Shown piece by piece: positions 3,046 through 23,978 of a DNA stretch of 64,000 nt (positions are counted from its first letter, which is position 1; every line of letters starts with the position of its first letter). The notes under the pieces were generated by a model. That model was not told where the DNA came from. It did not search any database and saw only the letters and a program-made list of their open reading frames with translations. Location of the stretch: NCBI RefSeq assembly GCF_900107545.1, contig NZ_FNQZ01000002.1, forward strand, positions 372,001 to 436,000, in the 5' to 3' direction. Source of the DNA: Pseudobutyrivibrio sp. ACV-2 (GTDB lineage Bacteria > Bacillota > Clostridia > Lachnospirales > Lachnospiraceae). The translations under genes were made by a program, and so were the position numbers.

Positions 3046-4155
3046 TTACAATATCTCGTCGTTGAATATTACGATTGGGTTTGGTAGGTCCATGGATATG
3101 AGTTGGGTTACGATTTCGTCGTAATACATGTTGCAGATGATGATGGCGGTGTCAGGCGGCAGGTCTTTTAGACTCTTGGGATCTTTGATTTCAAGTCCAT
3201 AAGCTGTTTGGCCCCAAAGTGCAGGATTATTATCGCATGTAAATAGAGGTGTATTATCTACACCAAAATGTTCCATATATACTTTGCACATGTTACCTGC
3301 ACCAAAGAGTGCCCTTGATTCGTATTTGCGGATTGTGTCCTCTATTGATATCAGGTACTCGAAGTAGTGGCCTATCTCAATGATACGGCTCGACATCACA
3401 GGTTTCATCAGGCCTGGGAGGTTCCACTGTGTGGAACTTATATCAATTAAAATGTCACCTTCAAATTTTATTTTTCTGATGGCCTTTATTATGCCTCCCC
3501 AGTTTATCCAGCTTTGACCATTAGAAGCATTTGAAAATGGCAGGGCGGCAGAGTCTTCCTGTCCATTATTTTCTATTGGGATAATCAATCCTAGTTCTTC
3601 TTTGAGGCCATCTATCAACTCTGGAATGTTTTGTCCGCACAGATTTGCTACGCCTGTATCTAATGCCAGTTTAAATGGTTTGTTCGCGTATGCCCTGTTC
3701 AGGTTTTCGATAAAATCCTTTAGTTGGTAGGCATCTGATAGGAAGCCTCTGTTATAACTTCCGTTATATATGTCGTATTGATTTTTGATGAGGATAGTGA
3801 TGTCTGTGTCCTTTAAGAGCTCTGCTACCTCAAGATACATTTGGGTAATTTCATCTTTTTTCAGGGAAGTTTTTTTATCCCATGCATATGGCTCTATCAG
3901 GATAGACCTACAGCCCAAGTCTTTAGCTGATATGATGCTCTCTTTAAAGAGTCGCTCCATGGCTGCCTTGGGACGGGTTTTTATTTCTTTTTCCTGAAAG
4001 CACAAGGCCTTGGATAGTTTTATTTCCTTGCCCTGAGTCACTGATTTTTTCATAAATGCTTCAGCCAGAAAATGAATGCCTTCATCGCCATCCATTACAG
4101 GTGGTTTCTTGAATCGGTTGTAATCTATATAGTCGCTGGTTGTGATTACTTTCAT
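3046..4155 (-). CDS. TIM-barrel epimerase-like protein with C-terminal Rossmann-like module
   Basis: I chose the ATG at 4155 because TGGAG lies about six bases upstream; an in-frame ATG at 4167 is possible. Residues 1-270 follow a xylose isomerase-like TIM-barrel plan (ILIEPYAWD, LALDTGVANLCG, DILIDISS), less well conserved at the metal sites than the neighbouring 314-residue protein. Residues about 280-369 are the island's recurring module: RALFGAGNMCKVYMEHF, then CDNNPALWGQ, then IIICNMYYDEIVTQL. The cytidylyltransferase fusion starts only 28 bases upstream, so the two are probably co-transcribed. Function is inferred as sugar or polyol isomerisation tied to surface-polymer synthesis; the substrate is unknown. 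Confidence 0.8.
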   Translation of the reverse strand: MKVITTSDYIDYNRFKKPPVMDGDEGIHFLAEAFMKKSVTQGKEIKLSKALCFQEKEIKTRPKAAMERLFKESIISAKDLGCRSILIEPYAWDKKTSLKKDEITQMYLEVAELLKDTDITILIKNQYDIYNGSYNRGFLSDAYQLKDFIENLNRAYANKPFKLALDTGVANLCGQNIPELIDGLKEELGLIIPIENNGQEDSAALPFSNASNGQSWINWGGIIKAIRKIKFEGDILIDISSTQWNLPGLMKPVMSSRIIEIGHYFEYLISIEDTIRKYESRALFGAGNMCKVYMEHFGVDNTPLFTCDNNPALWGQTAYGLEIKDPKSLKDLPPDTAIIICNMYYDEIVTQLISMDLPNPIVIFNDEIL

Positions 4156-4183
4156 ATGTTTCTCCATAAAATATGTGTGTTAA

Positions 4184-6556
4184 TCAATCCGTATTTTCGA
4201 TATTTTTTGCAGTTTCGGTATTCTCCCGGAGCTGCTCCTTCAGCATGGTGGAGCTTACCTCCTCGGTGTATGGGAAAAATATCAGGTCACTGCCTCGCTG
4301 CCTTAAGTACTCCCTGGTGGCGAGCCAGTTTGGGTCGTTCTCATAATCACTTCCTGAAAACTGAACGTCAAACTGGTAGGTGTTGTATGCGTATTCCGAG
4401 CCTGCGTCCTCTATTGGAATGGTGACTGCTTCGTCCACATATCTGCAGCCCTGCACTATGGCAAATCGCTGAATGAATGGGATTACAGGTCTGGTCTTTT
4501 TGTATTTAAGAATCTGCTCATCGGTGACAATGCCCACTATCAGATAATCGCACTGCTCCTTGGCACGTCTCAGCAGGTTCAAATGGCCCACATGAAACAT
4601 GTCAAAAACTCCAGCTACGTAGCCTATGTGGTATTTCTTTGGAGGGGCATCTGCAGTGGCTGTTGGAATGTGCTTTGGTGGCTTTGGATAGGTTAGCCAA
4701 GGGTTGAAAATACCTATGTGTGTGATTCCCATTTCTTTTAGCTGAGTTAGAACCTCATCGTAAAATTTGATGCAGATGAACACTTTTAGGCCTGTCTTTT
4801 CGGTGAGAAGATGAGCCGGTTCGTAAATACGTATTCCCTCAAGGTCTTTTCCCCACTTTGCACTATTGTTATCAATTATTCCTGCTATCACATATTGGTC
4901 TCTGAATCTTTTAACAAATTTTGTAGCGTAGTCTCCTGAGCCGAAGATATATAATTTTTTGCCGTCGGCATCTTTGAAAATATCAGTGAATAGTTTTTCG
5001 TATTCCGCTTGTGGATAATCCATACGAAAGCGGTTGTTGGTGAGTGTGCCGTGATGTGGTTGCACCTTTCCATAGTATGCTTGCAGTTCATTGTCATTTA
5101 TGAAATCCAACAAATGTTTTCTTATCTGAAGTCTGAACATTTCTGCATGTGTGGATAGATTGAAATGGTCAAGCACCTGCTGCAAAGGCATTAGTTTTTC
5201 TCCTTCATTCCAACCGGCATAGACCACCTCGATTGTCCTTAAAAATATTGCATTTGCTGGGAACTGCCTGATATAAAACTCCTGGTCAAAATACAGCGGG
5301 CCTGTCTCTGTCCTAAAACAGTTTATCGGGGCAAGATCCAGATAGCCACGCTCTAAGATAACTCCGATTGCAGCTTTATCTTCCTCTGTGCCATGGGCCA
5401 GGTCACGCCATTTATAAAGTTCTGGGTCGTCAGGCTTTCTTTTCTCCCAGTAGGGATCAAACTTTGTCCAGTCCACTTCATCATAGGACAGGTTATTTGA
5501 AGAGTGTTCTATGATATTTTTAATAGTTGTAAGTGTTATGATGAAATCATTCTGACCATTTTTGATAAGAGTGTCACGGAGATAGTCTGTCAAAATCTGG
5601 CCCTTGATGAATGGTGTCTCGTAACCATTTTCCGTGAAGTTTCCTGTAATTACAGGCACGCCGCGGTCATTAAGATATCTGGCATTTTCATCTGTCTCTT
5701 CCAGACTTTTTAGGCCTTCTGGATACATGTTCTTTTTTACAACCTTATCCGTATATACGATAGTGGCCTGGGCAGCCTCAGGCTTACGGCCTGTCTGCAC
5801 AGTGATTTCCTGTATGGATTTTATGTCTGTGATTTCATTGGATATAGCTTCACTTGAATCTATCTGACGGCACACAAACAAATAACCATCTGCCATGGTA
5901 TGTAGCAAGCCATGCTTCATGAAGTCATCATATATGCTTGCTTTATCTAAAAATACTGATTCCGGTGCATTGTAGATTCCCTGAAGTCTTCCGTCAAAGC
6001 GCTCATTTGGCGTCTCCCCATATTTCACCATTATCTGCGGGCGGAAAAGGTTTGGGAATAGGGAAAAGGTGGTAACTGTTTCAAGACCTGCAGTTGTTAA
6101 CATCTCTTCTATTTCAAGCTTTGTATAGCATCTGCCATCCATTTCCTTCATTCTATGTGGGACAATTCTTTTATAATTGTCAAGACCATCCAGCACATGC
6201 CCTGTGGTAACGTCTTTATCGCCCACCACCTGTCCTATATTTAGCCTGTTAAATGTTGCAAGAAAGAGGATGCCGTCACCCTTAAGGAGTTTCCTGATTT
6301 GAGCTAATAATCCTTTTGGCTCCAGCGTGCTTTCCAATCCTGCTGCAACGATGATGTAATCATATCCACCATCTACAGTGCCAATTTCCGAGATATCCAC
6401 ACTTTCTGCCTTGATTCCCACATCTTCAAATACAGAAAAAAGCACCTTAAAGGCAGGATACCTCCCTGTGATTAAAAGTGCTTTTGTATCCTTTTTGAAA
6501 TTGTACCAACTGATGAGCCCCCGTGGTAAATCCTTCACATATCTGTTAACGTCCAT
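4184..6556 (-). CDS. Four-part fusion: methyltransferase-like, kinase-like, Rossmann-like module, TagD-type cytidylyltransferase
   Basis: A 790-residue protein after a strong GGGGAGAG site. Residues 1-235 resemble a class I SAM methyltransferase, but motif I (ALLITGRYPAF) lacks the usual glycines. Residues 270-510 resemble a choline/aminoglycoside kinase fold: LDLAPINCF followed by PLYFDQEF matches the usual Asp...Asn...Asp-x-Glu layout loosely. Residues about 530-620 are the recurring Rossmann-like module (LYIFGSGDYATKF, IDNNSAKWG, DEVLTQLKEMGI). Residues 643-790 are a TagD/LicC-type cytidylyltransferase with GVFDMFHVGHLNLL and SSTMLKEQL. Known members make CDP-alcohols such as CDP-glycerol. 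I infer production of a CDP-activated alcohol for polymer decoration, with the kinase-like part perhaps supplying the phosphate. Confidence 0.85.
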   Translation of the reverse strand: MDVNRYVKDLPRGLISWYNFKKDTKALLITGRYPAFKVLFSVFEDVGIKAESVDISEIGTVDGGYDYIIVAAGLESTLEPKGLLAQIRKLLKGDGILFLATFNRLNIGQVVGDKDVTTGHVLDGLDNYKRIVPHRMKEMDGRCYTKLEIEEMLTTAGLETVTTFSLFPNLFRPQIMVKYGETPNERFDGRLQGIYNAPESVFLDKASIYDDFMKHGLLHTMADGYLFVCRQIDSSEAISNEITDIKSIQEITVQTGRKPEAAQATIVYTDKVVKKNMYPEGLKSLEETDENARYLNDRGVPVITGNFTENGYETPFIKGQILTDYLRDTLIKNGQNDFIITLTTIKNIIEHSSNNLSYDEVDWTKFDPYWEKRKPDDPELYKWRDLAHGTEEDKAAIGVILERGYLDLAPINCFRTETGPLYFDQEFYIRQFPANAIFLRTIEVVYAGWNEGEKLMPLQQVLDHFNLSTHAEMFRLQIRKHLLDFINDNELQAYYGKVQPHHGTLTNNRFRMDYPQAEYEKLFTDIFKDADGKKLYIFGSGDYATKFVKRFRDQYVIAGIIDNNSAKWGKDLEGIRIYEPAHLLTEKTGLKVFICIKFYDEVLTQLKEMGITHIGIFNPWLTYPKPPKHIPTATADAPPKKYHIGYVAGVFDMFHVGHLNLLRRAKEQCDYLIVGIVTDEQILKYKKTRPVIPFIQRFAIVQGCRYVDEAVTIPIEDAGSEYAYNTYQFDVQFSGSDYENDPNWLATREYLRQRGSDLIFFPYTEEVSSTMLKEQLRENTETAKNIENTD

Positions 6557-7868: not shown

Positions 7869-7927
7869 TTCTACTCCTAAACAAGATTTTTTCACTATTT
7901 TAATCAAATTATAGTATTATAAGAGCA

Positions 7928-7962
7928 AAAAATCACTGTTTTTTCAAAAAACAGTGATTTTT
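7928..7962. repeat. 35-nt perfect palindrome, copy 2 (upstream of fic)
   Basis: Identical in all 35 bases to the copy at 6756-6790. On the minus strand it lies directly before the two TATAAT boxes of fic, so it could be an operator at the -35 region as well as a terminator for upstream transcription. The two copies bracket fic almost exactly. Confidence 0.9.
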
Positions 7963-7987
7963 CATCTTCTACATATATCCGTCACTC

Positions 7988-8146: not shown

Positions 8147-8158
8147 TTAATATTGATA

Positions 8159-8491: not shown

Positions 8492-8553
8492 CTCTAGTGC
8501 TTCTCGATTCTTCTAAAAAAAGCGGTACAATAATACCGCTTTAAAAGATAATA

Positions 8554-9457: not shown

Positions 9458-10708
9458 TCATTGTATATATGATACCAACACTTCTATACTTAAACCTTCC
9501 CTTATTTCGAAGATTTTTTCTTCATTCACTCCAGCAGACATTAGCTGGCGCTTTAACTCTGGCGTACTTTTTCGACCGGTGATAATATATCTGTAATCCG
9601 TATTTACGTTTTTCATGTCTGGCTTTTGGACTATATAGCCTAATAAGTTTTGCCCTACTATGGCAGGGTTGTTGTCTACTACTTTTTTTATAGCTTTGAC
9701 ACCAAGGATTTTTTGAGCTAAAAGTACCTCCTGTCCTATGCCTGCCGCACCCCACAGAATGCAATTAGTTTCATTTTTAAGAATTTGAAGCAGACTAGGT
9801 AATCTATCTATTGCTTCTTCTACTAACTTCAGACTGTTTAAATCAACGATGCCTTCTTCTACTGCCTGCAAAAATTTCTGTCTAGGTACAGAATGAAGTC
9901 GCTTGGCATTCCATAAATATGAACCCTTTTTTACCAATTCATAAAATTCTACTGCATCCGGTGTTTCTAAACTCCTGGTTTTCAACTCATTTCTAAGCCA
10001 GTCAAATTCTTCCTTGATACACAAGTACTTGCTGTCATCTTTGGTTGATGATTTTACATTGTCCACCCTGTACAGGTAAATAGGCTTTTGAGAGAATTTT
10101 ATTTTCTGTGCATAAAGCGCGCATAATACACTAAAACCTACATCCTGATAAGATGCTCCTGGGCTTTCGTTGCAGATAATGTGATTGTCTGTGAGGAATT
10201 GTTTTCTGTAGAGACCAGTCCAAATATGGGTGTAGGCATTTATCCTGTATTGCGGTTCATGATTTATCTCTATGATTCTTTCATGATCTTCTGCAGGAAC
10301 CAAAGAGCAAGGCAATAATATCCGCTGAGTGCCTTCTCTGAGGAACATTGTAAAGCTTCCTTTTACATAATCGACTTCTGGCTCCATAGCTGTGATAAGC
10401 TCTTGTAAAAAGCCAGGGTCATATTCATCATCTGATTCTAGAATAGCTATATATTCACCAACAGCTGCTGCAATACCCACATTTATCTTATGACCATAGC
10501 TAGAATTTGAATCTGCAATTATTCTAATACGCTGATCCAATTCAGCATAGCTTTCTAGCATAGTAAGTGAATCATCATCTCCACTTACTATAAAAATGGC
10601 CTCAAAATCAGCAAAAGACTGCACATTTAGGCAGTCTTTTATCCTTGGAATATATTTAGCTGAATTATGAATTGTTATGATGATTGAAATAGTAGTTTTT
10701 CTGTTCAT
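9458..10708 (-). CDS. GT2 glycosyltransferase with C-terminal Rossmann-like module
   Basis: Residues 1-220 are a GT-A fold family 2 transferase: ISIIITIHNSAKYIPRIKD at the start, then NVGIAAAVGEYIAILESDDE, where ESDDE supplies the Asp-rich metal site. Residues 225-305 are helical linker. Residues about 308-400 are the island's module (CILWGAAGIGQEVLLA, VDNNPAIVGQ, YIITGRKSTPELKRQLM). Known GT2 enzymes add one sugar from a nucleotide sugar to a lipid-linked or polymer acceptor at the inner membrane face; no membrane helix is present. Donor and acceptor cannot be assigned. First gene of the polysaccharide island on its downstream side. Confidence 0.88.
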   Translation of the reverse strand: MNRKTTISIIITIHNSAKYIPRIKDCLNVQSFADFEAIFIVSGDDDSLTMLESYAELDQRIRIIADSNSSYGHKINVGIAAAVGEYIAILESDDEYDPGFLQELITAMEPEVDYVKGSFTMFLREGTQRILLPCSLVPAEDHERIIEINHEPQYRINAYTHIWTGLYRKQFLTDNHIICNESPGASYQDVGFSVLCALYAQKIKFSQKPIYLYRVDNVKSSTKDDSKYLCIKEEFDWLRNELKTRSLETPDAVEFYELVKKGSYLWNAKRLHSVPRQKFLQAVEEGIVDLNSLKLVEEAIDRLPSLLQILKNETNCILWGAAGIGQEVLLAQKILGVKAIKKVVDNNPAIVGQNLLGYIVQKPDMKNVNTDYRYIITGRKSTPELKRQLMSAGVNEEKIFEIREGLSIEVLVSYIQ

Positions 10709-10761: not shown

Positions 10762-11440
10762 TTAAAATTGGGGAATAATTATATTGGTAAATCCTAAATC
10801 AGTTGCATTTTTATATAATTCGTCACAATACTTTGTCGATGATATAATGACAACTACATTTTTCTTCATAGGTATCCAGTCACTTATCACAGCCTCGTTG
10901 GAGTTCTCGGATTGAGTTACAACAAATGTGTAATTACTAATTCCTCTTTCTACAAGTAGTTCTTCGACAGCTTCTCCAACTTTACCTCTTCCATATATCA
11001 AAACTCTATTGCTATTTCTAATTATATCCATCTGGCTTTTTGAAAATTTATATGGGAAATAACCTTTGTAGAAACCCGCCTGAATCAGAGGTAATACATG
11101 CTCAGTTTGTATATATTTATACCTATAATCATCTGGGAAGCAATCAATGTCTTTGTATCTACTATATAAAGCATTTGCCAAAGACTTTAAATATGTAAGT
11201 ATCTCATCTCTTAAAGAATAACTAGGCTCATCATCCAATTCGAACGGGATGTGCTAACAAATAATCTTTTCTCTCAGAGTCATCCCCATATCTCTTAGAT
11301 ACTGCAAACCCCAAGAAATTTATATCTTCAGAATTATTTAATTCTTTCGCCACTATCTTTCCTTTATTTCCAATTCCAAACACTATCACTGGTTTCCCGT
11401 TTTTAAATAAACTAGTATCATTAATTAATCTTTCTTAGGA
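10762..11440 (-). pseudogene. Frameshifted protein with two Rossmann-like modules
   Basis: Two overlapping frames make one broken gene. The upstream frame (about 11440 to 11231) encodes KPVIVFGIGNKGKIVAKEL, a typical module start, and then reaches two stops. The downstream frame (11238 to 10762) carries SLRDEILTYLKSLANALY and a second module (RVLIYGRGKVGEAVEELL ... VVVIISSTKYCDELYK). A one-base insertion near 11240-11265 would explain the shift. The downstream part has only a TTG start without a good ribosome site. Either the gene is decaying or the base is a sequencing error. It lies beside another frameshifted gene, which favours decay. Confidence 0.7.
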
Positions 11441-12163: not shown

Positions 12164-13036
12164 TTATCTCAATATAACTGATTTGCTACCATGTAATAAC
12201 AACTGAATAATATCAATTTCTGGATTCTTGCCCCATGCAACGCTACTCACAGTTTTATAGTATTCTTCATCTGCTTTTCTTTTTAAATAAATACTATCGT
12301 TCTTCTCCGTATTTAATGAAGTAAAACATACTTTTTTCTTATATGGTAGCTCATAAAATTTTCTTATTATATCTTCATTATTTGTGTACATAGTCACAAA
12401 TAAGTTATTCCATTCTATTCTCTTTTTTCTCTTATTCCAGCAAAAAAGTGCCTGTTCATAGCTACTATAATGATTAAAAAATAGCTTTATATCGTCACAT
12501 AAACACACTGGATAATTAATATCTAAATCTTTATTATATAAATATTCAATCACTTCAAGATTTGTTTCTATATAATGTTTGGGCTCACCTAAAAACTTAA
12601 TATAATCACCTTCTTCTAAAAACATATTAATAAAAGGCGATTTAAACTCTAGTCCCAGTCTATGATAAACTATCCCTCCCCAACAATTCATTGAAAAAAT
12701 CGAAGGGACATTATTTATCAATTTTTTCAAATCATCAAATTTCAAATCTGGATATCTTAATACAGGATAAAAAATTATTTTTCTTTCTGGAAAGCCAACT
12801 TTGATAGCCTCATTTTTTATTTCAGTCACTGATTTTGCCATAATAATAACCAAATCATAGTCTTCCGCATTAATATCCATTTTGTTAATATACTTGTATC
12901 CATAAAAAGTGACTGCATCTTCATTTCCAGTAATGGCTATAACTTTTATGTCTCCTTTTGTTTCAAAATACTTTATTAAATTAATATTCTCTATCAGAAT
13001 TTTTCCCATTCCCCATAGCAAACATTTATACATCAT
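12164..13036 (-). CDS. DUF1919-type exopolysaccharide protein with N-terminal Rossmann-like module
   Basis: Residues 1-95 are a divergent copy of the island's module (CLLWGMGKILIENINL ... YDLVIIMAKSVTEIKNEAIK). Residues about 108-290 match the DUF1919 pattern known from exopolysaccharide loci: FSMNCWGGIVYHRLGLEF, SPFINMFLEEGDYIKFL, YPVCLCDDIKLFFNHYSS and WNKRKKRIEWNNLFV. The activity of DUF1919 is, to my knowledge, not established. It abuts the upstream GT2 gene, whose last codons (GGTGGAG) form its ribosome site, so the two are translationally coupled. A role in adding or transferring a substituent to the same glycan is likely. Confidence 0.85.
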   Translation of the reverse strand: MMYKCLLWGMGKILIENINLIKYFETKGDIKVIAITGNEDAVTFYGYKYINKMDINAEDYDLVIIMAKSVTEIKNEAIKVGFPERKIIFYPVLRYPDLKFDDLKKLINNVPSIFSMNCWGGIVYHRLGLEFKSPFINMFLEEGDYIKFLGEPKHYIETNLEVIEYLYNKDLDINYPVCLCDDIKLFFNHYSSYEQALFCWNKRKKRIEWNNLFVTMYTNNEDIIRKFYELPYKKKVCFTSLNTEKNDSIYLKRKADEEYYKTVSSVAWGKNPEIDIIQLLLHGSKSVILR

Positions 13037-14312: not shown

Positions 14313-15389
14313 TTAAGCCATTTGATTATTTACCGCATACAACACCGTATCCAACATATCCATTGAATAATGCCTTACATAAAAATAATACTCTGGATTA
14401 TACTCCAACAATAGTTCAGGTATTGTCCAAATATCCTCTAACTTATGATACAAACATATAGCCAGTTTAGGCTTTTGCTCGGTTATTATTCGCTTTGCTC
14501 CTTTAATGGCTTCCAGTTCAGAGCCCTCAATATCCATCTTAATAAATGTCACTCTTTCATCTGGCAAATAACTATCTAGCGATGTTACTGGAATATCTAC
14601 CCATTTTTCATCCGAGTAATCTATTCCTTTTAAGCCACTTAAGTTTTGCTCAGTTGCAATATCACTATCGGGTCTATCAAAGAACCTTAAAGTATCTGGC
14701 TTACTCCACAAGCCCTTCTTTATCCATTCACAATTATCCAAGTGCTCAACATTTTTGTAAAAACGATTGTAATAGTCTATAGATGGCTCAAACATATATA
14801 TTTTCTTATATTTGTTATGAGACCACTTCACAAAATCTAAAGTTGTACCTCCATCATAGACTCCTGCATCTACAAACACTTCATTATCATCGTGCCATAT
14901 AAAGGTTTCAAAATATTCATTGACCTCATTATCATATATCTCACCTAAGGCAATAATCTTTGACGCATCAACACCTCTTTTTAATAATAAATTTTTTACC
15001 TCGGCATACCCTTTCTTTATTGAAACAATAAAAAGAACGTTGTTTACACTGTTCGTCAATTCATCTATAGAATAAATCTTTTTTCCACAGTAATACTCCC
15101 CCGCTTTATAGGAATCAACAAATCCCTCTACCGATGCCAAGTCTTTTATTGCGTGGTATAACTTGTCACCCCAAATTCCTGCGCCATAAATATATACAGG
15201 TAGATTCTTGTTATCATTCAACCATGGAAGAACATTTCGCAAATAAGAACCGCTGCAAACTATATCGTTTAGATATTGCACATCCCCAGTCAAATTGTAC
15301 TTTAAACGATTAACGTATAATCTTTTAGATTCTTCATCCAACAGGTGCTCGTATATTTTGTTTGTTTTTTCAATAAAATCTGTATTCAT
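14313..15389 (-). CDS. FkbM-family methyltransferase with N-terminal Rossmann-like module
   Basis: The ATG at 15389 has AAAAGGG at good spacing; the frame also opens from a TTG at 15416. Residues about 45-150 hold the module (LPVYIYGAGIWGDKLYHAI ... VLFIVSIKKGYAEVKNLLL). Residues 155-358 match FkbM SAM-dependent O-methyltransferases: VFVDAGVYDGGTTLDF (SAM site), IYMFEPSIDYY, and FIKMDIEGSELEAIKGAK. Such enzymes commonly methylate sugar hydroxyls in antibiotics or glycans. The radical SAM gene ends just upstream with a 20-base gap to this start. I infer O-methylation of the surface glycan. Confidence 0.9.
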   Translation of the reverse strand: MNTDFIEKTNKIYEHLLDEESKRLYVNRLKYNLTGDVQYLNDIVCSGSYLRNVLPWLNDNKNLPVYIYGAGIWGDKLYHAIKDLASVEGFVDSYKAGEYYCGKKIYSIDELTNSVNNVLFIVSIKKGYAEVKNLLLKRGVDASKIIALGEIYDNEVNEYFETFIWHDDNEVFVDAGVYDGGTTLDFVKWSHNKYKKIYMFEPSIDYYNRFYKNVEHLDNCEWIKKGLWSKPDTLRFFDRPDSDIATEQNLSGLKGIDYSDEKWVDIPVTSLDSYLPDERVTFIKMDIEGSELEAIKGAKRIITEQKPKLAICLYHKLEDIWTIPELLLEYNPEYYFYVRHYSMDMLDTVLYAVNNQMA

Positions 15390-15408
15390 ACACATATCCC
15401 TTTTAACA

Positions 15409-17085
15409 CTATTCAAAAAGTCCTGTTACTTTTCTCTCTAATTCCCACCGATAATAATTCTCTTTACTACCTTTCTCAACATTCATTCTTCCATACTGAA
15501 TAGTTCCCAAATCCACGATTTTCTCTTGCATTATCGGTAGTGACAATATCTCTTTTAATTCTTTTTTAGGAGTAACTCCATCAGATTCCATCATACTAAC
15601 CTGCGCAAATTCCTCCTCCGAATACGTACCCCAATTTAAGATTTTAGTAAAGAAAACCTCATCCACTCCCAATTCAAGTCCCCATTTTACAAAGCCTGGC
15701 ATCTCCTTGTAATTCATAGCTTGAACCACAAAGTTTAACCGCATATACGATAATTCACCATTTTTTCGGAGTGAAGCTGCATATTCCATATTCTTTTTCA
15801 GAATATCAAAATTTCCTCCTCTTCGAATCGCTTCATACGTTGATTTCGTAGCTGCATCAATTGATATTGTTATCATTATTTTTGCTGATGTAGTTTCACG
15901 CAGCATTCTCCAATTTTTCTCATTAAAGAGAAGTCCATTTGAAAGAAGTCTTATCCATTTTGTATCTTTATTTGCCTTGCATGTCAAAAGATTTCGGTAT
16001 TGCTTACTCATTAGAGTTTCACCATTACCTGCAGAAATATAGAACTCACAATCTGGCAATAATTCTTCTTTTATCTTATTGCTAATAATATCTAACTTTT
16101 CCTGTTCTTCTTCACATGCCACCTTATAGCTATCTCGGCAAGTAATACACTTAAGATTACATGTCTCATCGAATCCTACAGCTACTGTTGTGGGACTAGC
16201 TTCCATTTTTTTATATGGAGAAGACAAGTCTGTCCCCGCTTTATTATAAGTTCCAATAAAAAATGGACACATATCTTTTCTACAAAAACTATATGTCTTA
16301 TTCACATTTGAAAGGCACATAATTTTATGAATTGAAGAACTCCAAAGTTCTCCAGCCGACTTATTCAACAGACTACCCAAAGAATGATATATAAATGTTG
16401 AGCAACAACAGATACTATTCCCATCTGTACCAACTTCCATATGATTTAACATTGTTCTGCAACCCAAATCATAGCAACTCTTGTCAAATATCGTCCGCTT
16501 TAATAATTCCGAAGGCAAAGCGATATACTCTTCGTCAGTGCAATAATCCTCCCAGTGTTTAAACCCCCACTGCTGAAGCTGCTGTATTATTTCCTGATTC
16601 TTTCTTATGGCAACTATGATAAAGTGCTTGCTGCATAAATCGATATCTGGTTTTAGTATCTCTACCTCATTAAATTTCTTACCATATTTATATGTATCAA
16701 CATAGCACTGTGGTTTTATTGTCTTGTCCCATTCAAGGAGCTTACCCGCTGCTATTCCTGTTCCCCAGATTAGAATTGGTTTGTTGTTGGAATTAATCCT
16801 ATCTGAATTGAGTTGCTCAAAAAAGGTGTCTTCCGCCGTATAATCACATGAACTCAATCCCAGTTCATTAAGAACTTTTATCTTATCTTTTTTATCGAAA
16901 TCACATACAATTAGCTTATTAAACTCACCTTTATGAGGTATGATGTCTTTCGATGAATAAACTGGTGCTCCTAGAAATCTACTCTCTACATACTCATCAT
17001 CGAAAAAGCACACTATTTCTAGATTGTCAAATATATACAAGAAATCTTTGCTGACTCTGTTTACACCATAAATAGCATACTTCAT
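15409..17085 (-). CDS. Radical SAM protein with two N-terminal Rossmann-like modules and a SPASM-like segment ahead of the radical SAM core
   Basis: The ATG at 17085 follows GTGGGGTGG; the frame opens five codons earlier. Residues 1-85 and 95-185 are two successive modules (YAIYGVNRVSKDFLYIF; PILIWGTGIAAGKLLEW). Residues about 205-285 are cysteine-rich (NSICCCSTFIYHSLGSLL, AGELWSSSI, then CRKDMCPFF), which resembles a SPASM/twitch domain. The radical SAM motif CNLKCITC follows at about residue 308, with ISAGNGETLMSKQYR as the glycine-rich segment. So the accessory cluster domain comes before the core, opposite to the usual order. Reaction unknown; known relatives modify peptides or sugars. 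Context suggests glycan modification. Confidence 0.85.
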   Translation of the reverse strand: MKYAIYGVNRVSKDFLYIFDNLEIVCFFDDEYVESRFLGAPVYSSKDIIPHKGEFNKLIVCDFDKKDKIKVLNELGLSSCDYTAEDTFFEQLNSDRINSNNKPILIWGTGIAAGKLLEWDKTIKPQCYVDTYKYGKKFNEVEILKPDIDLCSKHFIIVAIRKNQEIIQQLQQWGFKHWEDYCTDEEYIALPSELLKRTIFDKSCYDLGCRTMLNHMEVGTDGNSICCCSTFIYHSLGSLLNKSAGELWSSSIHKIMCLSNVNKTYSFCRKDMCPFFIGTYNKAGTDLSSPYKKMEASPTTVAVGFDETCNLKCITCRDSYKVACEEEQEKLDIISNKIKEELLPDCEFYISAGNGETLMSKQYRNLLTCKANKDTKWIRLLSNGLLFNEKNWRMLRETTSAKIMITISIDAATKSTYEAIRRGGNFDILKKNMEYAASLRKNGELSYMRLNFVVQAMNYKEMPGFVKWGLELGVDEVFFTKILNWGTYSEEEFAQVSMMESDGVTPKKELKEILSLPIMQEKIVDLGTIQYGRMNVEKGSKENYYRWELERKVTGLFE

Positions 17086-17192
17086 CGTTCCACCCCACAA
17101 ACTTGTTGCTACTATTTTACTCTATTTTGTCAAAATATACTCTATCATTCACAGAATGTTGAGAATTTTCGCAAAATTCATCATCATAAAGA

Positions 17193-17238: not shown

Positions 17239-18765
17239 TCAGTTCTCAATCAAAGAGCCAATAACCGTATCTAGTGAAATGATCTTTTTTATTCCTTTTT
17301 CTTCAAGTGATTGTTTGATATTCACATAGTCGTATGTAACTGATACAACAACCATATCAACTTCTGGCAAATCATTTTGCAATGTATAAACCGGAAATGA
17401 TTTCTTTATTGCCTCACCTTTCCCATCAATGCCATACTCAATTGTTATCGATGATCCCTCCAAATCCATTAAAAAATGTGTACCAAGCATTCCCAATCCA
17501 TACACAGCAATTCGCTTTACACCTTTTCGTTCAAAGTATTCTGCTGTTGAAACACCTCTTTCTTTCAACATCATCCATTTATCAAAGATTTTCCAGTAAC
17601 TTCGATATTGAGTTATGGTCTTCTCAACTTTTTCTAATTCTATATCGGATTCCATACTATGTGTTTTTTTATTATCTTCAGAACTCTCATTCTGCGCTTC
17701 ATATATCGCCTCTAAGAATCGATATCCCCATTCCTCATCTGGCTCCAAATACATTGTCTCTCCCCACTCATTCCATGCGTTTATAAATACAAATTCATTT
17801 TCCAAATCTACGCTTTGTTTTATGATTTCCCGTATATAATCCTTAAACACGTCTGGATTTGAGTTGATAACAGCAATTCCCGCTTTATGTCTTCTAGGAG
17901 TGTCATCATACCCAGGGAAGGCTGATAAATATGTTTTCTTCTTCAGATTTCTCACTTGACGCTGAATCTTAATACTTTTTTCAACAATCTCACTATAATC
18001 AATAACTGCTGCAACCTTGTCATCGAGTTTTCTATATCTATCTGGATAACTCCTTCTAAACGAATACTGTGGTTCCATATTTAACCTGGCATCACACGAT
18101 TCACTTTCCACATTCGTCGAAATGAAATATATACCATTAAATCCGTTTTTCCTAGCCAATTTATTCCATAATTCAACCATTTCTGGAAGGCAAAATATCT
18201 CATCAGATTTATATATTAAAAAAAGCGGCTTGTTCCCCACTTTTATATATCTATCATCTTTAAAGAATTTTAAAAGATATTCAAAATGGCTTGCCCAATC
18301 CTCTTCATCTCCATACCCTTGTTCAAGTAATATACCGTCACTACTCTCTTGATTTGAGTCATTTTCCAACGACCATACATTTTTCGAACTCATTTTGCTC
18401 CAGGATCTAGCCCAGGTTTCATTCGCCCAAGAAAAACAAAATGGCATATCAATATCTTTCCATTGCAAAAGATTCTCTGCTGGCTTCTCTAATATTTTGC
18501 GTCCATCTTTAAAATAATAATGGTAAAAACACATACCATACACGCCATATTTATGCATCAAATCAGCCTGCCACTGCATAGTCTCTCTCTCCAAAAGATT
18601 GTAATAATATCCATCTTTTGGAATTTTAGGCATAATATGCCCCTCAAACAGTGGTTCTGCAGATTTTACAGACGTCCATTCTGTAAATCCCTCTCCCCAC
18701 CATTTGTCATTTTCAGGCGTTCTATGAAATTGCGGTAGGTACATTGAGATTATTTTCATATCCAT
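17239..18765 (-). CDS. WbsX / GH99-like protein with C-terminal Rossmann-like module
   Basis: Residues 1-350 match the WbsX-type glycan-locus family (GH99-like TIM barrel): IISMYLPQFHRTPENDKWWG, GFTEWTSV, YGVYGMCFYHYYF, PFCFSWANETWARSW and FVFINAWNEWGE. These proteins are known from O-antigen and capsule loci and are proposed to act on or transfer sugars. Residues about 370-410 are linker and 418-508 the recurring module (RIAVYGLGMLGTHFLMDL ... VDMVVVSVTYDYVNIKQSL). The ribosome site is weak. It stands between a GT2 gene and the radical SAM gene. Hydrolase versus transferase activity cannot be decided here. Confidence 0.85.
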   Translation of the reverse strand: MDMKIISMYLPQFHRTPENDKWWGEGFTEWTSVKSAEPLFEGHIMPKIPKDGYYYNLLERETMQWQADLMHKYGVYGMCFYHYYFKDGRKILEKPAENLLQWKDIDMPFCFSWANETWARSWSKMSSKNVWSLENDSNQESSDGILLEQGYGDEEDWASHFEYLLKFFKDDRYIKVGNKPLFLIYKSDEIFCLPEMVELWNKLARKNGFNGIYFISTNVESESCDARLNMEPQYSFRRSYPDRYRKLDDKVAAVIDYSEIVEKSIKIQRQVRNLKKKTYLSAFPGYDDTPRRHKAGIAVINSNPDVFKDYIREIIKQSVDLENEFVFINAWNEWGETMYLEPDEEWGYRFLEAIYEAQNESSEDNKKTHSMESDIELEKVEKTITQYRSYWKIFDKWMMLKERGVSTAEYFERKGVKRIAVYGLGMLGTHFLMDLEGSSITIEYGIDGKGEAIKKSFPVYTLQNDLPEVDMVVVSVTYDYVNIKQSLEEKGIKKIISLDTVIGSLIEN

Positions 18766-18912: not shown

Positions 18913-20100
18913 TTACAAATTATATAAATCCAATACTCTTATTATATCTGTGTGCTTCATGTCTAACTTAGCTATCTTATTGCTATCAATCCCTAAAGAA
19001 ATAAGTTCATTTTTTATTGATTCTCTTAACTTAGTTCGCGTTGCCATAATAAGTATTTTGTCCATTTCTTTTTGCCTACGAACTAGTTCTGAGGGTGTGT
19101 CAATTTTGAATCCACTTATCTCTCCTGTTTTTTCTTTATCAACTACCATTACTATATTATTTCTATCATGCCTTGATAGCACGCGCAGATATTCTTGTCC
19201 CATATCTCCACATCCATAAATTGCCACTTTTTCTTCTATTTTAACATTAAACGGGAATATATCATCCTTATAATACGCTTGTAGCAGATTATAATCGGCA
19301 AGCATCATATCTCTTACCATTTGTAAAATTATTTGGTTTTCAACTTTCTTCCATATTTCTTTTTTCAAAAACTGTGCCTTAAGATATTCATAAAACTTCT
19401 TCTCTGATTCCATTAAATCTTTTGAATGTGTTCGGCAAAATGACTCCTCATGAATCCTATAACAATATACTATCTGCCCTGTAGATAATACTTTATCTAC
19501 ATTAGCCATAATATTCCATACACAGGCCACATCCTCCGACATACGAATATCATTTGGGCAACTCATTATTATTTCGCGAATCGACTCTATTTTATACATC
19601 CCGCCCCATAAAGAGGTAATCATTTTGCTCTCGTAAAAGCATTTATCATTTATAAAATCACATGCTAACTCTATACCAGAATAAGTCCCGCGTGCAACGT
19701 TTGTTATCACAGACTCTTTATCCCTATAGACCTTTTTACAATCATAAAGAACTACATCAACATTATTCATTCTGGCTTTATTAACAAGACTCTGTATTAC
19801 ATCATTTTGTTGGACTAACCAATCGTCTGCATCTACAAATAAGCACCATTTTCCTGAAGCTAATTCTAACCCTCTTTTTCTTGCTGCGATTTGACCAGCA
19901 TTATTCTGGTATTCATACTTTATTACTTCTGGGTATTCTTTTTTGAACTCTCGGCATAGTTTCTCCGAATCATCTGTAGAACCATCATTGATTAGTATTA
20001 TCTCTTTGTTTGGATAATCCTGCGCAATAATACTGTTTATGCATTGTCCTAGATATTTCCCAGCATTATATATTGGTATTATTATGCTTACTTTGTCCAT
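18913..20100 (-). CDS. GT2 glycosyltransferase with C-terminal Rossmann-like module
   Basis: Residues 1-105 carry the GT2 signature: VSIIIPIYNAGKYLGQCINS, ILINDGSTDDSEKLC, IAARKRGLELASGKW and LFVDADDWL. Residues 110-280 are the helical acceptor region. Residues about 285-390 hold the module (KVAIYGCGDMGQEYLRVL, MVVDKEKTGEISG, ILIMATRTKLRESIKNEL). GGCGGAA precedes the ATG, and the upstream radical SAM gene ends 22 bases away, so the genes are likely co-transcribed. Inner-face membrane association is expected from the family; no helix is visible. Confidence 0.92.
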   Translation of the reverse strand: MDKVSIIIPIYNAGKYLGQCINSIIAQDYPNKEIILINDGSTDDSEKLCREFKKEYPEVIKYEYQNNAGQIAARKRGLELASGKWCLFVDADDWLVQQNDVIQSLVNKARMNNVDVVLYDCKKVYRDKESVITNVARGTYSGIELACDFINDKCFYESKMITSLWGGMYKIESIREIIMSCPNDIRMSEDVACVWNIMANVDKVLSTGQIVYCYRIHEESFCRTHSKDLMESEKKFYEYLKAQFLKKEIWKKVENQIILQMVRDMMLADYNLLQAYYKDDIFPFNVKIEEKVAIYGCGDMGQEYLRVLSRHDRNNIVMVVDKEKTGEISGFKIDTPSELVRRQKEMDKILIMATRTKLRESIKNELISLGIDSNKIAKLDMKHTDIIRVLDLYNL

Positions 20101-20122: not shown

Positions 20123-21256
20123 TTACTGAATATTTATCGTGTCACAGTACTTACAGTGCGGCCAATTCCCTCTGCCTTTATATAATGCTTCTCTCACTTC
20201 ATTAAATCTCTTTCCATACCATACTTCTTTTAGTGACTGCGTGCTTAAATCCCCTAAGGTATCTCTCCCTAGTGGATCATTACAACACAGAGAGACCTCA
20301 CCTGTTGGTCTGATTATTAGTTGTTTAAATGGTAGTGCACATCTTACGTCCTCAAATGTACTATCCATTTCATGATTAGGTGCATCTCCACCTCTAGACG
20401 AAAGAACTTCATTCGATTTTCTAAGAACTATAGTAACTTTATTTATTAATTCAGGGTGATTTTCACAATATGCAGCTATTATTTTGTTATTTGATATCAG
20501 TTCTAGTTCTTGGTTATAATTATCAATTATTAACTCATCCAAATAGTCTACCACCTGCAGAAATTTTTCTAACGTCAAAAGGGTACCGTTAGTAAACAAG
20601 TGCATTCTAGCCTTAGGCAACTTTTCTCGTGCATATTTCAACCTATCAATAATATTAGGATCTAAAAACGGTTCATTATTTGAGAAACAAGCTAATTTCC
20701 CCTGATAATCTAGTTCAGATAATTCATCAATTATCTTTTTAAACAATAATTCTGACATAATGGCATATTCTCTAGGGTCTTGATTGCGGTTAACAGGACA
20801 GAATGCACACACGCCATTGCATCGATTTATGGTCTCTATTTCAACATGATCAAATAAAGGAACCTTATCATGTAATTCCTCTACATTAGCATTAATAGTA
20901 TCAATTGCTAAACGTATCCTTTCCTTTTCACTTTCCTCTGTTCTAGAATTCCCATCATATGGATTAAAAACAATCTCGTTTGTTGAATAGTATGCACGAG
21001 GGTCTGAAACAAAGTATTCATAGTTAGTAACCCCCAATTTATCTAGTTGTTTTTTCATCATCTCAACATTTCGACTAGCAATTAATACTTTATAATCGCA
21101 ATCATCTAGCAATACCTCAACTGGTTTGATCTGAATTCCATCGACATTTTTCCCTTGAAGTTCTTTATTATTATCGACTATATATGCAACTTTTGATTTG
21201 TACATTGAAACTGCTTGTTTTCCAATTATTCCAGCGCCAAATACTACTATCTTCAT
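20123..21256 (-). CDS. Radical SAM/SPASM protein with N-terminal Rossmann-like module
   Basis: Residues 1-95 are the module (MKIVVFGAGIIGKQAVSMY, IVDNNKELQG, YKVLIASRNVEMMKKQL). The radical SAM core begins near residue 147 with CNGVCAFC (CxxxCxxC), followed by FSNNEPFLDP and RMHLFTNGTLL. A SPASM-type C-terminus carries VSLCCNDPLGRDTLGDL, LKEVWYGKRF and HCKYC. This is the usual core-then-SPASM order. GGGGT precedes the ATG. Relatives oxidise or rearrange peptides and sugars; the substrate is unknown. A stub nearly identical to its module start lies just upstream at 21535-21591. Confidence 0.88.
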   Translation of the reverse strand: MKIVVFGAGIIGKQAVSMYKSKVAYIVDNNKELQGKNVDGIQIKPVEVLLDDCDYKVLIASRNVEMMKKQLDKLGVTNYEYFVSDPRAYYSTNEIVFNPYDGNSRTEESEKERIRLAIDTINANVEELHDKVPLFDHVEIETINRCNGVCAFCPVNRNQDPREYAIMSELLFKKIIDELSELDYQGKLACFSNNEPFLDPNIIDRLKYAREKLPKARMHLFTNGTLLTLEKFLQVVDYLDELIIDNYNQELELISNNKIIAAYCENHPELINKVTIVLRKSNEVLSSRGGDAPNHEMDSTFEDVRCALPFKQLIIRPTGEVSLCCNDPLGRDTLGDLSTQSLKEVWYGKRFNEVREALYKGRGNWPHCKYCDTINIQ

Positions 21257-21477: not shown

Positions 21478-21534
21478 TATAAATATCTCCTAAAGCATTC
21501 AATAGTAAATCGCTATACAATTTTGATTTTTACA

Positions 21535-21591
21535 TCAAGATAAAGCCTGCTTTCCCATTATCCCTGCACCAAATATTATTATCTTTTCCAC
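21535..21591 (-). pseudogene. 18-codon stub of a Rossmann-like module gene
   Basis: From a GTG with AGGTGAT upstream the frame reads VEKIIIFGAGIMGKQALS and stops. It is closely similar to the first residues of the radical SAM protein encoded 0.3 kb downstream (KIVVFGAGIIGKQAVS). The start region and ribosome site are kept while the rest of the gene is gone, so it is a remnant of a second module-bearing gene. Confidence 0.7.
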
Positions 21592-21603
21592 TTAAATATC
21601 ACC

Positions 21604-22782
21604 TCATATACTAATACGTAAAATCTTTTCTTCTTTAATCCTTAAATCTTTTAGTTCTTTTATAATCTGTTCAACCATAGTTCCCCTCAATACCGCTATA
21701 AGCACATAATCATATTTTTTTTCTGCCATTATAGTTTTAATATCATAATCATTATTTCCACCATCTTTTTTATCTAGCCACAAAACAACAGAAATACTGA
21801 ACTTATTCTCCAGAATACCCTTTAGTCTCTTACCAAATCTACCAGCTCCATAAAGTATAATTTGATTCCCCGGTTTAAGATTACCTAATGGATATATTTT
21901 TCCATTTCTGTTTTCTATAATACTCTCTGGTACTTGTAATAAGGTCGAATATAGAATTAACGCGTTCACTCCGTTTAGAATTGAATAATTTTCCTTATCC
22001 AAAAAATTATTAAGATTAATTTTTAAATTTTTCTCTAAACACGCTATTCGCATTTCTTCATCTTTTAAATTGTTATCCATACAAGACCCACTACGTATTC
22101 GATAATGATAAAAAGCTTTATGAATAATCATCATGCTATTAGCAGAATACACACACGGATACACTATTGCTGCATCTTCACCCACATTAATTCGATCATC
22201 TACATTCTTATATAGCGTCTTTATAAGTGCTGATTTAAATAGTTTGTTATATACATGTATATTTATACCAGATTCAAAAAAAACACCCGTATATACGGCA
22301 ATAGGATAAATCTTATTTTCTAAATCATCTCTGTTATAGTACCCTTCTTTACACTGATCAAATTCGTCAACAGTATGTTTTCCATAGTCTCTTTTTACTC
22401 CAGAGGTAATTATATCTGGCATAAAATCCGAAGATAACTCAATCATTTCTTGATACATTACTGGTTCAATCCAGTCGTCTCCATCAACAAATGTTATATA
22501 CTCTCCAGTCGCAATATCTACACCAACTTTACGCGCACCTATAATTCCCCCATTAGATTTATGTACTACTTTTATTCTGCTATCAATTTTCTTATAGTTG
22601 TCAACTATATCTCCTGAGGAATCTGTAGAACCATCATCGACAAGAATTATTTCTAATTTCTTATATGTCTGATTAATAATACTTTCTATACACTCAGGTA
22701 AATATTTCTCAACATTATATATGGGAACAATTACACTAATATATGGTTTCACTAATTCATTATATTTATTTTTATCGTACAT
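21604..22782 (-). CDS. GT2 glycosyltransferase with C-terminal Rossmann-like module
   Basis: Residues 14-115 show ISVIVPIYNVEKYLPECIES, ILVDDGSTDSSGD, GARKVGVDIATGEYITFV and VDGDDWIE, the GT2 signature. Residues 120-290 are the helical part. Residues about 295-390 hold the module (QIILYGAGRFGKRLKGIL, WLDKKDGGN, YDYVLIAVLRGTMVEQI). Cytosolic, probably acting at the membrane on a lipid-linked glycan. A decayed GT2 fragment lies directly upstream. The donor sugar is unknown. Confidence 0.92.
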   Translation of the reverse strand: MYDKNKYNELVKPYISVIVPIYNVEKYLPECIESIINQTYKKLEIILVDDGSTDSSGDIVDNYKKIDSRIKVVHKSNGGIIGARKVGVDIATGEYITFVDGDDWIEPVMYQEMIELSSDFMPDIITSGVKRDYGKHTVDEFDQCKEGYYNRDDLENKIYPIAVYTGVFFESGINIHVYNKLFKSALIKTLYKNVDDRINVGEDAAIVYPCVYSANSMMIIHKAFYHYRIRSGSCMDNNLKDEEMRIACLEKNLKINLNNFLDKENYSILNGVNALILYSTLLQVPESIIENRNGKIYPLGNLKPGNQIILYGAGRFGKRLKGILENKFSISVVLWLDKKDGGNNDYDIKTIMAEKKYDYVLIAVLRGTMVEQIIKELKDLRIKEEKILRISI

Positions 22783-22937: not shown

Positions 22938-22979
22938 TTACAAATATTTTGATTCACTTTTAACCTAACTATCTAATAT

Positions 22980-23978
22980 CTATTTCGAAATAACCAATGT
23001 TCCATTTGCATCTGGTATAGGAACTTTTTTTAAACCTCTTCCTGTTTCTATTTCATATCTATCTACAGCTTTTTCTACACCTAACAAACTACTATTGTAG
23101 TCATGAATAAATATATATCCTCCTTCAGACATTTTAGGATAAAAGTACTTTATTCCCTCATATATTGATTCTTCAAAATCCATATCCAAAGAGACAAATG
23201 CAAAACTATCATTTATTCCTTCTGCTGAAGCCGGAAAAAATCCTTGTTTTACTACTATTTGATCAAGATTATCCATTTTTTCTAAGACTGACATTATATT
23301 TGTATCTTTGTACGCTTCAATAAATGCTTCTGTGCAATTTCCATTCTTTTTTTCGCTCACAGCTTCATTAACATCAAAACCATCAAACGTATCAAATAAA
23401 TACAACTTTCTATCCGGAAAAGCTTTGTTTATATATTGAGCAAATTCACCTCTAAAAACTCCAGCTTCTGCGACTTCCCCTTTTATATCTTTTTTTCTTA
23501 TTTCTTTTACTACCAATTCGAATGTTTTTATCCTTACATAATCTGTTTCCATATAAGAATCACTTAGATACTTTGTGTTTTCGAAGCATAAAACACCATA
23601 CGCCTCCGTTCCTCTTACTACGTGATATCGTTTTTCTATAACTTTTGCATATTTTTCACCTACTATTTGTTCCACAAAACTATAGTCTTCATTTATATCC
23701 TTCAGGCAACAGTTTCCATATAAAAAGATAAACTTGTCTAAATCTAATCCAATTTTTTTTGCTTGATTATATATTTCTTTAGATCCTAATGTACATACGA
23801 TTACAGCATCATATTCTTTATCTATTAAATCTTCTGGCGTAAGAACTTTTTTACTAAAGTATTCCTTTTTATTAGGATTGTTATCAATAAACGCTTCTAT
23901 TCTCTCTATTGGTATCCATCTATCGAGGATTTTTCCTGCCAATCGACCTGTTCCCCAAAAGTAAATCTTTCCTGCCAT
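22980..23978 (-). CDS. TylF/MycF-type O-methyltransferase with N-terminal Rossmann-like module
   Basis: The ATG at 23978 follows AAAGGAT; the frame also opens eight codons earlier. Residues 1-95 are the module (KIYFWGTGRLAGKILDRW, FIDNNPNKKEY, YDAVIVCTLGSKEIYNQA). Residues 130-332 match macrocin-type sugar O-methyltransferases: VAEAGVFRGEFAQYINKAF, LYLFDTFDGFD, SLDMDFEESIYEGIKYFYP and YIFIHDYNSSLLGVEKAV. Known members use SAM and Mg2+ to methylate deoxysugar hydroxyls. It is the most upstream gene of this part of the island, followed by the decayed GT2. I infer glycan methylation. Confidence 0.9.
   Translation of the reverse strand: MAGKIYFWGTGRLAGKILDRWIPIERIEAFIDNNPNKKEYFSKKVLTPEDLIDKEYDAVIVCTLGSKEIYNQAKKIGLDLDKFIFLYGNCCLKDINEDYSFVEQIVGEKYAKVIEKRYHVVRGTEAYGVLCFENTKYLSDSYMETDYVRIKTFELVVKEIRKKDIKGEVAEAGVFRGEFAQYINKAFPDRKLYLFDTFDGFDVNEAVSEKKNGNCTEAFIEAYKDTNIMSVLEKMDNLDQIVVKQGFFPASAEGINDSFAFVSLDMDFEESIYEGIKYFYPKMSEGGYIFIHDYNSSLLGVEKAVDRYEIETGRGLKKVPIPDANGTLVISK

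Follow-up and report, generated by a model that had tools for sequence, protein, structure and literature searches.

A Rossmann-like module shared by unlike enzymes in a probable flagellin-glycosylation island of Pseudobutyrivibrio sp. ACV-2

Small Rossmann-like domains stand beside the catalytic parts of several enzymes that build glycoconjugates. The closest tested precedent for the module described here is the PF13727 (CoA_binding_3) domain of WbaP, which, according to a study of that enzyme, provides the greater part of the contacts within the dimer and gains stability from UMP, UDP and UTP, with UMP inhibiting WbaP at an apparent half-maximal inhibitory concentration of 4.1 uM (PMC10942596). 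We describe a module of about 90 residues in a 64,000-nucleotide stretch of the Pseudobutyrivibrio sp. ACV-2 genome (contig NZ_FNQZ01000002.1, positions 372,001 to 436,000; hereafter the window), where 14 copies lie in 13 open reading frames (ORFs) between positions 3046 and 24002, all on the minus strand. Like PF13727 in WbaP, it is a Rossmann-like domain adjoining a catalytic part and has the same strand-GxGxxG...D..G pattern. However, WbaP is a membrane enzyme, whereas the module is mostly found in soluble proteins, is joined to 25 enzyme families at either end, and also occurs alone.

Three other known domains invite comparison. The N-terminal domain of PglD holds the nucleotide-sugar substrate in sugar acetyltransferases. 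Its family, PglD_N, present in NeuD, PglD and VioB, is the commonest Pfam match of the module (17 of 60 sampled copies at E ≤ 0.01; four of the 14 in the window at E ≤ 1), yet it has a single partner fold, the left-handed beta-helix. The combination of C2185-like_N with DUF1919, solved as 2g6t, has the same architecture as the window protein starting at 12164 (genes are named below by their first coordinate), but C2185-like_N is matched by a minority of modules (five of the 14 window copies at E ≤ 1, seven of the 60 sampled at E ≤ 0.01). The NAD(H)-sensing Rex proteins are the best structural neighbours of one modelled copy, although they are DNA-binding repressors with no known role in glycans. 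At the level of the pathway, the report on the Clostridioides difficile Type A flagellin glycan describes genes cd0240-cd0244 for a glycosyltransferase, a proposed CTP-dependent cytidylyltransferase, an N-methyltransferase and a TagF-like phosphotransferase, and proposes a CDP-threonine intermediate and a TagF-like transferase (PMC10714395). Judging from annotations, the window holds an analogous set in its GT2 glycosyltransferases, a CTP_transf_like domain fused to a methyltransferase-like domain, and a Glyphos_transf protein (25492). Against this, the C. difficile cytidylyltransferase was modelled on GDP-mannose pyrophosphorylase, which belongs to another family, and the passages of that report consulted mention no such module. 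No description of the module was found in the titles and abstract openings of the open-licence papers that literature searches listed.

The sequence-only reading that preceded this analysis had counted about 13 module-bearing genes or gene remnants, and profile searches bear it out, with the 14 modules falling at the genes it had named and two partial remnants lying in the same locus. A profile of any 13 copies recovers the fourteenth (14 of 14, 21.4-54.9 bits; E-values between 1.6e-15 and 5e-5 for Z = 3500), while none of 2800 shuffled copies of window proteins reaches 1e-3. A search of the organism's own genome (3.66 Mb, E ≤ 0.1) returned 16 matches, 14 of them the modules used to build the profile, which it finds by construction; the other two are an in-locus remnant and a weak match (E 0.0016) outside the locus, in a 672-residue frame on another contig. 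Two distant GT2 matches from a direct protein search of genome contigs were not used. The leave-one-out test, the shuffled control and the own-genome search leave us in hardly any doubt that the clustering is real and that the copies are homologous, constituting one module. The strand-GxGxxG start ascribed to them holds for most of the copies, but the GxG is incomplete in two of the 14 (the glycosyltransferase 9458 and the first copy in the radical SAM protein 15409), and the acid that ends strand 2 is absent in another two (the DUF1919 protein and the fragment 10762).

What the module is attached to varies widely. The window partners that exceed Pfam cut-offs fall in seven families: GT2 (four proteins), DUF1919, FkbM, WbsX, TylF, Radical_SAM/SPASM (20123) and CTP_transf_like. 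Matches to AP_endonuc_2 (3046), Methyltransf_23 (4184) and Radical_SAM in 15409 (28.2 versus 29.5 bits) remain below. An earlier figure of at least eight partner folds was generous: the partners are indeed unlike, but FkbM and TylF, both class I methyltransferases, share a fold. The placements given for the module were right, namely, C-terminal on the four GT2 enzymes, the WbsX protein and the TIM-barrel protein; internal in the 790-residue fusion 4184-6556, between a methyltransferase-like N-terminus (Methyltransf_23, below cut-off) and a CTP_transf_like C-terminus (above); N-terminal on the DUF1919, TylF and radical SAM (20123) proteins; and twice toward the N-terminus of radical SAM protein 15409. 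Only for FkbM does the placement need qualification, as the module there lies near the N-terminus but follows a 65-residue lead.

In the genus as a whole, modules occur in 17 of 19 genomes, the own genome included. The near set of loci comprises the window and loci from 17 related genomes, of which 16 belong to the genus and one, G019, to the same order. Its 25 locus segments yielded, with an iterated profile, 190 modules in 184 ORFs; those ORFs whose partner has at least 60 residues (n = 179) form 59 sequence clusters, the largest being GT2-like (n = 52). Partner names rest on one protein per cluster, with 50 of the 59 clusters scanned against Pfam in this way and the window's own proteins scanned separately (cluster 53 is the window fragment). 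Above cut-off, the relatives add Glycos_transf_1, GT8, GT9, GT10 (fucosyltransferase), LicD, RgpF, DUF4422 and Glyphos_transf, along with TOD1_MUCI70, MptE-like, class I methyltransferases (counted once), TupA ATP-grasp, GNAT, DUF362, PIG-L, FrhB_FdhB, APH kinase and sulfatase; these 18 families and the seven of the window make 25. Seven of the 50 scanned proteins, including two stand-alone modules, lack any Pfam match at E ≤ 0.01, and others matched below cut-off only. The iterated profile also collects true GFO/IDH/MocA domains (five of the 60 sampled modules match GFO_IDH_MocA), and six proteins were removed, three from the near set and three from the other set of loci, leaving 187 + 175 = 362 modules in 354 proteins; the counts of 190 modules and 59 clusters, the nearest-neighbour counts, the 364-module fingerprint and some gene maps predate this removal. 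Of the 362 cleaned cases, 172 have the module at the N-terminus, 157 at the C-terminus and 22 at an internal position, and in 11 it is nearly alone.

The surroundings of the module genes in other genomes point to flagellin. At E ≤ 1e-6, 56 of the 200 family genomes and 26 of the 299 phylum genomes have module matches, the own genome included. Outside the window's genus, genomes from 30 genera of the family contain 45 module clusters, of which 11 have a Flagellin_N match no more than 20 kb away (2.06 expected; P 5e-6), a P value that is post hoc, because the flagellin idea arose from the same genomes; the phylum-wide set is separate, and in its 25 non-own genomes, 11 of 29 clusters lie within 20 kb against 0.72 expected, a number reached in none of 300,000 simulations. 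The first set consists of genomes with at least three module matches, minus G176 and G199 (22 genomes with one or two matches fall outside it), and used 105 of 135 Flagellin_N matches, the 30 weakest (E 1.8e-20 and above, many of them FlgL-like) having been excluded by hand. The phylum-wide set used all 66 matches, with flagellin sought in all 25 non-own genomes with a module match; two of these genomes belong to the window's family, and some retained matches (frames of 204-250 or 630-640 residues) may be other Rossmann proteins. In the first set, cluster spans are minimum spans from among the matches listed; both calculations treat the genome as one interval. All 47 module-bearing family genomes tested for flagellin have it, versus nine of 16 without modules, and phylum-wide the figures are 25 of 25 versus 13 of 20, the module-free controls (20 phylum-wide; 14 from the family plus G001 and G006 of the own genus) being those listed and not a random draw. 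Presence alone is the weaker evidence, because those 13 module-free phylum genomes have flagellin too.

Individual loci, mapped for their proximity to flagellin and hence illustrating arrangement, not frequency, give this association concrete form. In G155, one strand carries FlgK-FlgL-FliW-CsrA-FlaG-FliD-FliS, two flagellins, a Maf-type protein, sugar-nucleotide genes and module proteins; FlgK, FliW, FliD, FliS and the MptE-like (Maf-type) protein have Pfam support; the other names were read from the sequence. A second MptE-like protein, with a Maf_flag10_N match, occurs in G195, and own-genus module cluster 18 (two members, one tested with Pfam) is itself an MptE-like protein fused to the module. 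A link to the window is a locus of G213, in which window genes 1791, 3046, 4184, 9458, 13037, 17239, 33302 and 34737 have counterparts in the same order and on the same strand, with 1791/3046/4184 and 33302/34737 consecutive in both; after the counterpart of 34737 come a GT2-like gene and then flagellin at the end of the locus. Order is thus kept at both ends and for three genes between. Other window genes match G213 out of order or share a best hit, and fewer match in G052 and G061. The sequence-only reading had spoken of polymer enzymes in general; the islands, the gene order in G213 and the proximity to flagellin make these look instead like flagellin-glycosylation genes. We consider such a role highly probable for the module genes across the relatives. 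For the window itself we hold it to be likely, at a lesser strength because the Flagellin_N matches of the own genome lie on other contigs; contiguity with flagellar genes is seen in several other genera and not in this genome.

As to the module itself, AlphaFold2 gave Rossmann-type models for the copy of the 790-residue fusion and for that of the WbsX protein. Structure prediction was among the checks proposed at the outset; both models have the Rossmann fold, and Rex 3wg9 is present in the Foldseek lists of both. For the fusion copy the list holds Rex as the best neighbours, 3nkl (which we take to be a PF13727-type accessory domain), the VioB, PerB and PglB acetyltransferases, WbaP 8t53 (E 1.5e-3) and succinyl-CoA synthetase; for the WbsX copy, general NAD-binding folds stand first, and 2g6t and Rex are among the matches. 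Sequence profiles reach the same relatives, a profile without the DUF1919 copy finding 3nkl and 2g6t at 4.1e-6 and a 60-member profile finding 3nkl at 4.5e-11 (its best match) and Rex at 1e-10. A similarity in fold to the PglD_N, CoA-binding and C-methyltransferase C-terminal families had been noted, and the modules are indeed related to these, though mostly not filed under them. Assignment to a single known Pfam family fails, as matches scatter over PglD_N, CoA_binding, C2185-like_N, Methyltransf_14 and general NAD domains. PglD_N (PF17836) exceeds its cut-off in one window protein only, the glycosyltransferase 18913; C2185-like_N (PF22674) does so in one of the 14 copies and has one match in the genome at E ≤ 0.001. 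Methyltransf_14 (PF08484) matches three of the 14 weakly (best 4e-4; 17.7 bits against a cut-off of 23.5 in 3046), and its partners differ. PF13727 is absent among the Pfam families listed for the window copies and the 60 sampled modules.

The best-conserved, well-covered positions in 364 modules are two glycines (95% and 85%), the strand-2 acid (79% D), a leucine in the last helix (78%) and a [GA] position (77%). Within the fingerprint GxGxx[GA]...D, the GxG is retained in 80% of these modules, the [GA] in 77% and the acid in 80%, and all three are present in nine of the 14 window copies. The module thus displays the strand-GxGxx[GA]-helix-strand pattern, ending in an acid, of NAD(P)- and nucleotide-binding Rossmann-like domains. 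This retention fits a shared nucleotide ligand, and on such sequence grounds it is reasonably likely that the module binds a nucleotide.

The history of the module was judged from nearest neighbours and not from a tree. In the near set, 101 of 190 modules have a nearest relative with their own partner label (in shuffles, 17 on average and at most 33), and 12 of 190 have one from their own genome (shuffle mean 10.6). In the larger set, a module and its nearest relative have homologous partners in 198 of 329 cases, as do 6.5% of random pairs, and the two share a genome in 19 of 364. Modules therefore appear to have been inherited with their partner enzymes as genes, and the fusions look old. The expectation that the copies of one locus would form one clade with many partner folds is not supported by these counts, on which a recent spread of one module within the locus is also rejected. 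Recent swaps of partner seem rare, because 95 of the 98 module pairs with at least 45% identity have homologous partners, with three exceptions.

In ten proteins (157-169 residues, nine genomes), the module is preceded only by a hydrophobic N-terminus and a linker with a consensus near YY.LLN.WL..K..G.....YF..N.Y; eight of them score above a simple threshold for a membrane segment. A linker of this kind also leads into the module of the WbsX proteins in the window and its relatives. Of nine full-length WbsX-like proteins (an 83-residue ORF with a WbsX motif in G149 was set aside as too short), eight have the module and the ninth, in G174, lacks it and directly adjoins two neighbouring stand-alone modules with hydrophobic N-termini (L115:15104-16089). 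This pattern of fusion in some genomes and separate WbsX and stand-alone genes in another suggests that the module can act in trans, and the hydrophobic N-termini fit a docking role. Against the PDB, the stand-alone family had no convincing match (best E 0.0036).

We propose that the window holds an island for flagellin-type glycosylation, that is, cytoplasmic and protein-linked, whose enzymes share a non-catalytic module for sensing and assembly, a reading that we judge about evenly poised between right and wrong. The module would bind a nucleotide or nucleotide sugar and would take no part in the chemistry of its partner enzyme. Pairing among modules, and between modules and the stand-alone copies, which are probably membrane-anchored, would gather the enzymes that act successively on flagellin close to the machinery of export, and a nucleotide product would modulate this pairing or the activity. 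A part in assembly or docking is quite possible though short of probable; one in nucleotide feedback, with which it is compatible, is a more tentative suggestion. The strongest form of the idea, a general-purpose tag on about 25 families that pairs with itself and with membrane-anchored copies to form a flagellin-glycosylation assembly line at the membrane, with the pairing set by nucleotide levels, is on the doubtful side.

Several observations weigh against this proposal. The three elements of the fingerprint occur together in only 51% of the 364 modules; the acid is absent in five of five RgpF modules, the GxG in three of three DUF4422 modules and the third small residue in four of four TIM-barrel modules. 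Foldseek returns no match for the WbsX model at E ≤ 0.001, and WbaP itself is matched only weakly in sequence (E about 0.009). A common docking surface is not evident, because identity among modules is only about 20-27%. As for flagellin, 34 of the 45 and 18 of the 29 module clusters lie more than 20 kb from it; there is none on the window's contig C37, the 10 Flagellin_N matches of the genome being on other contigs, and flagellins in the own genus are about 50 kb away at best among the matches listed. The module is missing from several genes in these islands, and six of the 25 segments from the window and its near relatives hold ORFs with at least four hydrophobic segments.

The last point bears on the alternative that these are generic exported capsule or exopolysaccharide clusters that merely accumulate accessory domains. 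RgpF, LicD and WbsX do occur in capsule loci; the own-genus loci G011 and G012a hold ORFs with 10-11 hydrophobic segments, and four more segments hold one with 5-8; the clusters of G414, G370 and G257 are 27-46 kb from flagellin and others are unlinked. Yet, by a crude hydropathy count, positions 1-30000 of the window contain no ORF with four or more such segments, a stretch that cuts the membrane-protein-like ORF 28883-30898, placed outside the island beside an ABC ATPase. Moreover, 334 of the 354 module proteins have no predicted membrane segment, flagellin proximity recurs in both genome sets, and MptE-like (Maf-type) proteins are fused to the module, all of which makes the capsule account distinctly unlikely.

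The remaining alternatives concern what the module does. It could sense a UMP, UDP or CMP-type product and tune its own enzyme by feedback only, without assembly, as the conserved GxGxx[GA]...D site, the precedent of the WbaP PF13727 domain and the structural match to WbaP 8t53 would allow; but radical SAM, deacetylase, GNAT and isomerase-like partners yield products that are not nucleotides, a stand-alone module is joined to no enzyme that it could regulate in cis, and the site is lost in some groups, so that we think this unlikely. That the module holds a nucleotide-sugar substrate in the manner of the PglD N-terminal domain would agree with the prevalence of PglD_N among its Pfam matches and with the VioB and PerB complexes among the Foldseek matches. 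GT2, GT4 and class I methyltransferases, however, have donor sites of their own for unlike donors, and the location of the module at either end of proteins, or alone, is also hard to reconcile with such a role, which we regard as quite improbable. We give a similarly low standing to the view that the module serves docking alone, touching flagellin or an export chaperone, with a vestigial Rossmann site: the flagellar context, the stand-alone versions with a hydrophobic N-terminus and the loss of the site in some groups would suit it, but residues of the site are among the most conserved positions and no binding partner of the module is in evidence. The combination of sensing with assembly in a flagellin-glycosylation island is the reading that we retain.

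Beyond the modules, several parts of the window and its counterparts deserve mention (Table 1). The 852-residue protein 34737 has homologues with 31-44% identity over 302-860 columns in G052, G213, G061, G072, G116, G149 and G161, and is a good candidate for a flagellin-modifying enzyme of no assigned family. The GFO/IDH/MocA part of 33302 is a true dehydrogenase-type domain and not a module. Between 10762 and 12084 lie the remains of one or two GT2-module genes, namely, a GT2 fragment, a half module and a 158-residue ORF with a complete module that is itself probably a remnant of a GT2 gene. A Fic protein, a helix-turn-helix regulator and a JAB-like ORF (weak Pfam match) occupy 6795-9325, separating the 790-residue fusion from GT2 9458, and look like an insertion in the island. 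At 24500-25262, a HEPN protein (Pfam) adjoins a small ORF that by eye resembles an MNT-type nucleotidyltransferase, a probable toxin-antitoxin pair at the island edge, and at 27064-28635 there is a gene pair resembling, again by eye, HipA and a HipB-type helix-turn-helix protein, the larger of which has homologues at three other own-genus loci. The ten Flagellin_N matches of the own genome are on contigs C6, C24, C27, C40 and C43, nine of them in frames of 533-688 residues, larger than the 270-300-residue flagellins of many relatives. The flagellin-linked loci L123-L124 (G213) and L126-L127 (G052) hold what appear by eye to be KdsA, KdsB and KdsD-type genes for the synthesis of 3-deoxy-D-manno-octulosonate, which are unusual for Gram-positive-type bacteria.

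Table 1. Module copies, remnants and selected neighbouring genes in the window
Feature	Position	Strand	Evidence or remark
Module 1, C-terminal on TIM-barrel (AP_endonuc_2-like) protein 3046-4167	3052..3330	-	Profile 8.9e-27; AP_endonuc_2 below Pfam cut-off
Module 2, internal in 790-residue fusion 4184-6556	4688..4966	-	Profile 1.5e-27; AlphaFold2 pLDDT (predicted local distance difference test) 89.7; Foldseek
Module 3, C-terminal on GT2 9458-10708	9497..9778	-	Pfam and profile
Module 4, in 158-residue ORF 10762-11238	10765..11019	-	Profile 2.8e-15; leave-one-out 21.9 bits
Half module (model positions 4-43) in open stretch	11234..11434	-	22.4 bits; remnant adjoining GT2 fragment
GT2 fragment	11425-12084		Pfam below cut-off
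Module 5, N-terminal on DUF1919 protein 12164-13036	12761..13036	-	Sole window copy above C2185-like_N cut-off
Module 6, C-terminal on GT2 13037-14254	13073..13351	-	2-Hacid_dh_C 25.7 bits, cut-off 25.1
Module 7, near N-terminus of FkbM methyltransferase 14313-15416 (residues 66-164)	14934..15212	-	Pfam and profile
Module 8, second copy in radical SAM/SPASM-like protein 15409-17100	16525..16791	-	Both Pfam matches below cut-off
Module 9, first copy in radical SAM/SPASM-like protein 15409-17100	16822..17094	-	GxG motif degenerate
Module 10, C-terminal on WbsX protein 17239-18765	17263..17526	-	Model pLDDT 85.9; linker type as in stand-alone modules
Module 11, C-terminal on GT2 18913-20100	18958..19242	-	PglD_N 25.0 bits, cut-off 23.4
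Module 12, N-terminal on radical SAM/SPASM protein 20123-21256	20999..21256	-	Pfam and profile
Short module remnant with one TGA	21505..21591	-	Profile 19.4 bits
Module 13, C-terminal on GT2 21604-22782	21610..21876	-	Pfam and profile
Module 14, N-terminal on TylF-type methyltransferase 22980-24002	23721..23978	-	Pfam and profile
Module-free AP_endonuc_2 protein	1791..2735	-	62.5% identical homologue at matching place in flagellin-linked G213 locus
CDP-glycerol glycerophosphotransferase-like protein (Glyphos_transf), no module called	25492..26754	-	Homologue (58%) in G052 locus
CTP_transf_like and GFO/IDH/MocA fusion	33302..34651	-	Homologues in flagellin-linked loci of G213, G052 and G061
852-residue protein	34737..37295	-	No Pfam match at E ≤ 0.001; homologues in flagellin-linked loci of seven genera

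The glycans on the flagellins of gut bacteria affect motility and immune recognition. What is new here is the flagellar context of the module genes, which is well supported; the mechanism is inferred. The shared module offers a sequence handle for finding such islands and predicts which of their genes of unknown function act on flagellin. It also hints at a possible role for the accessory domains PglD_N, PF13727 and C2185-like_N, usually annotated as CoA-binding or as of unknown function. If the proposed pairing of modules is true, it would amount to a plug-in rule that lets these islands swap in new enzymes.

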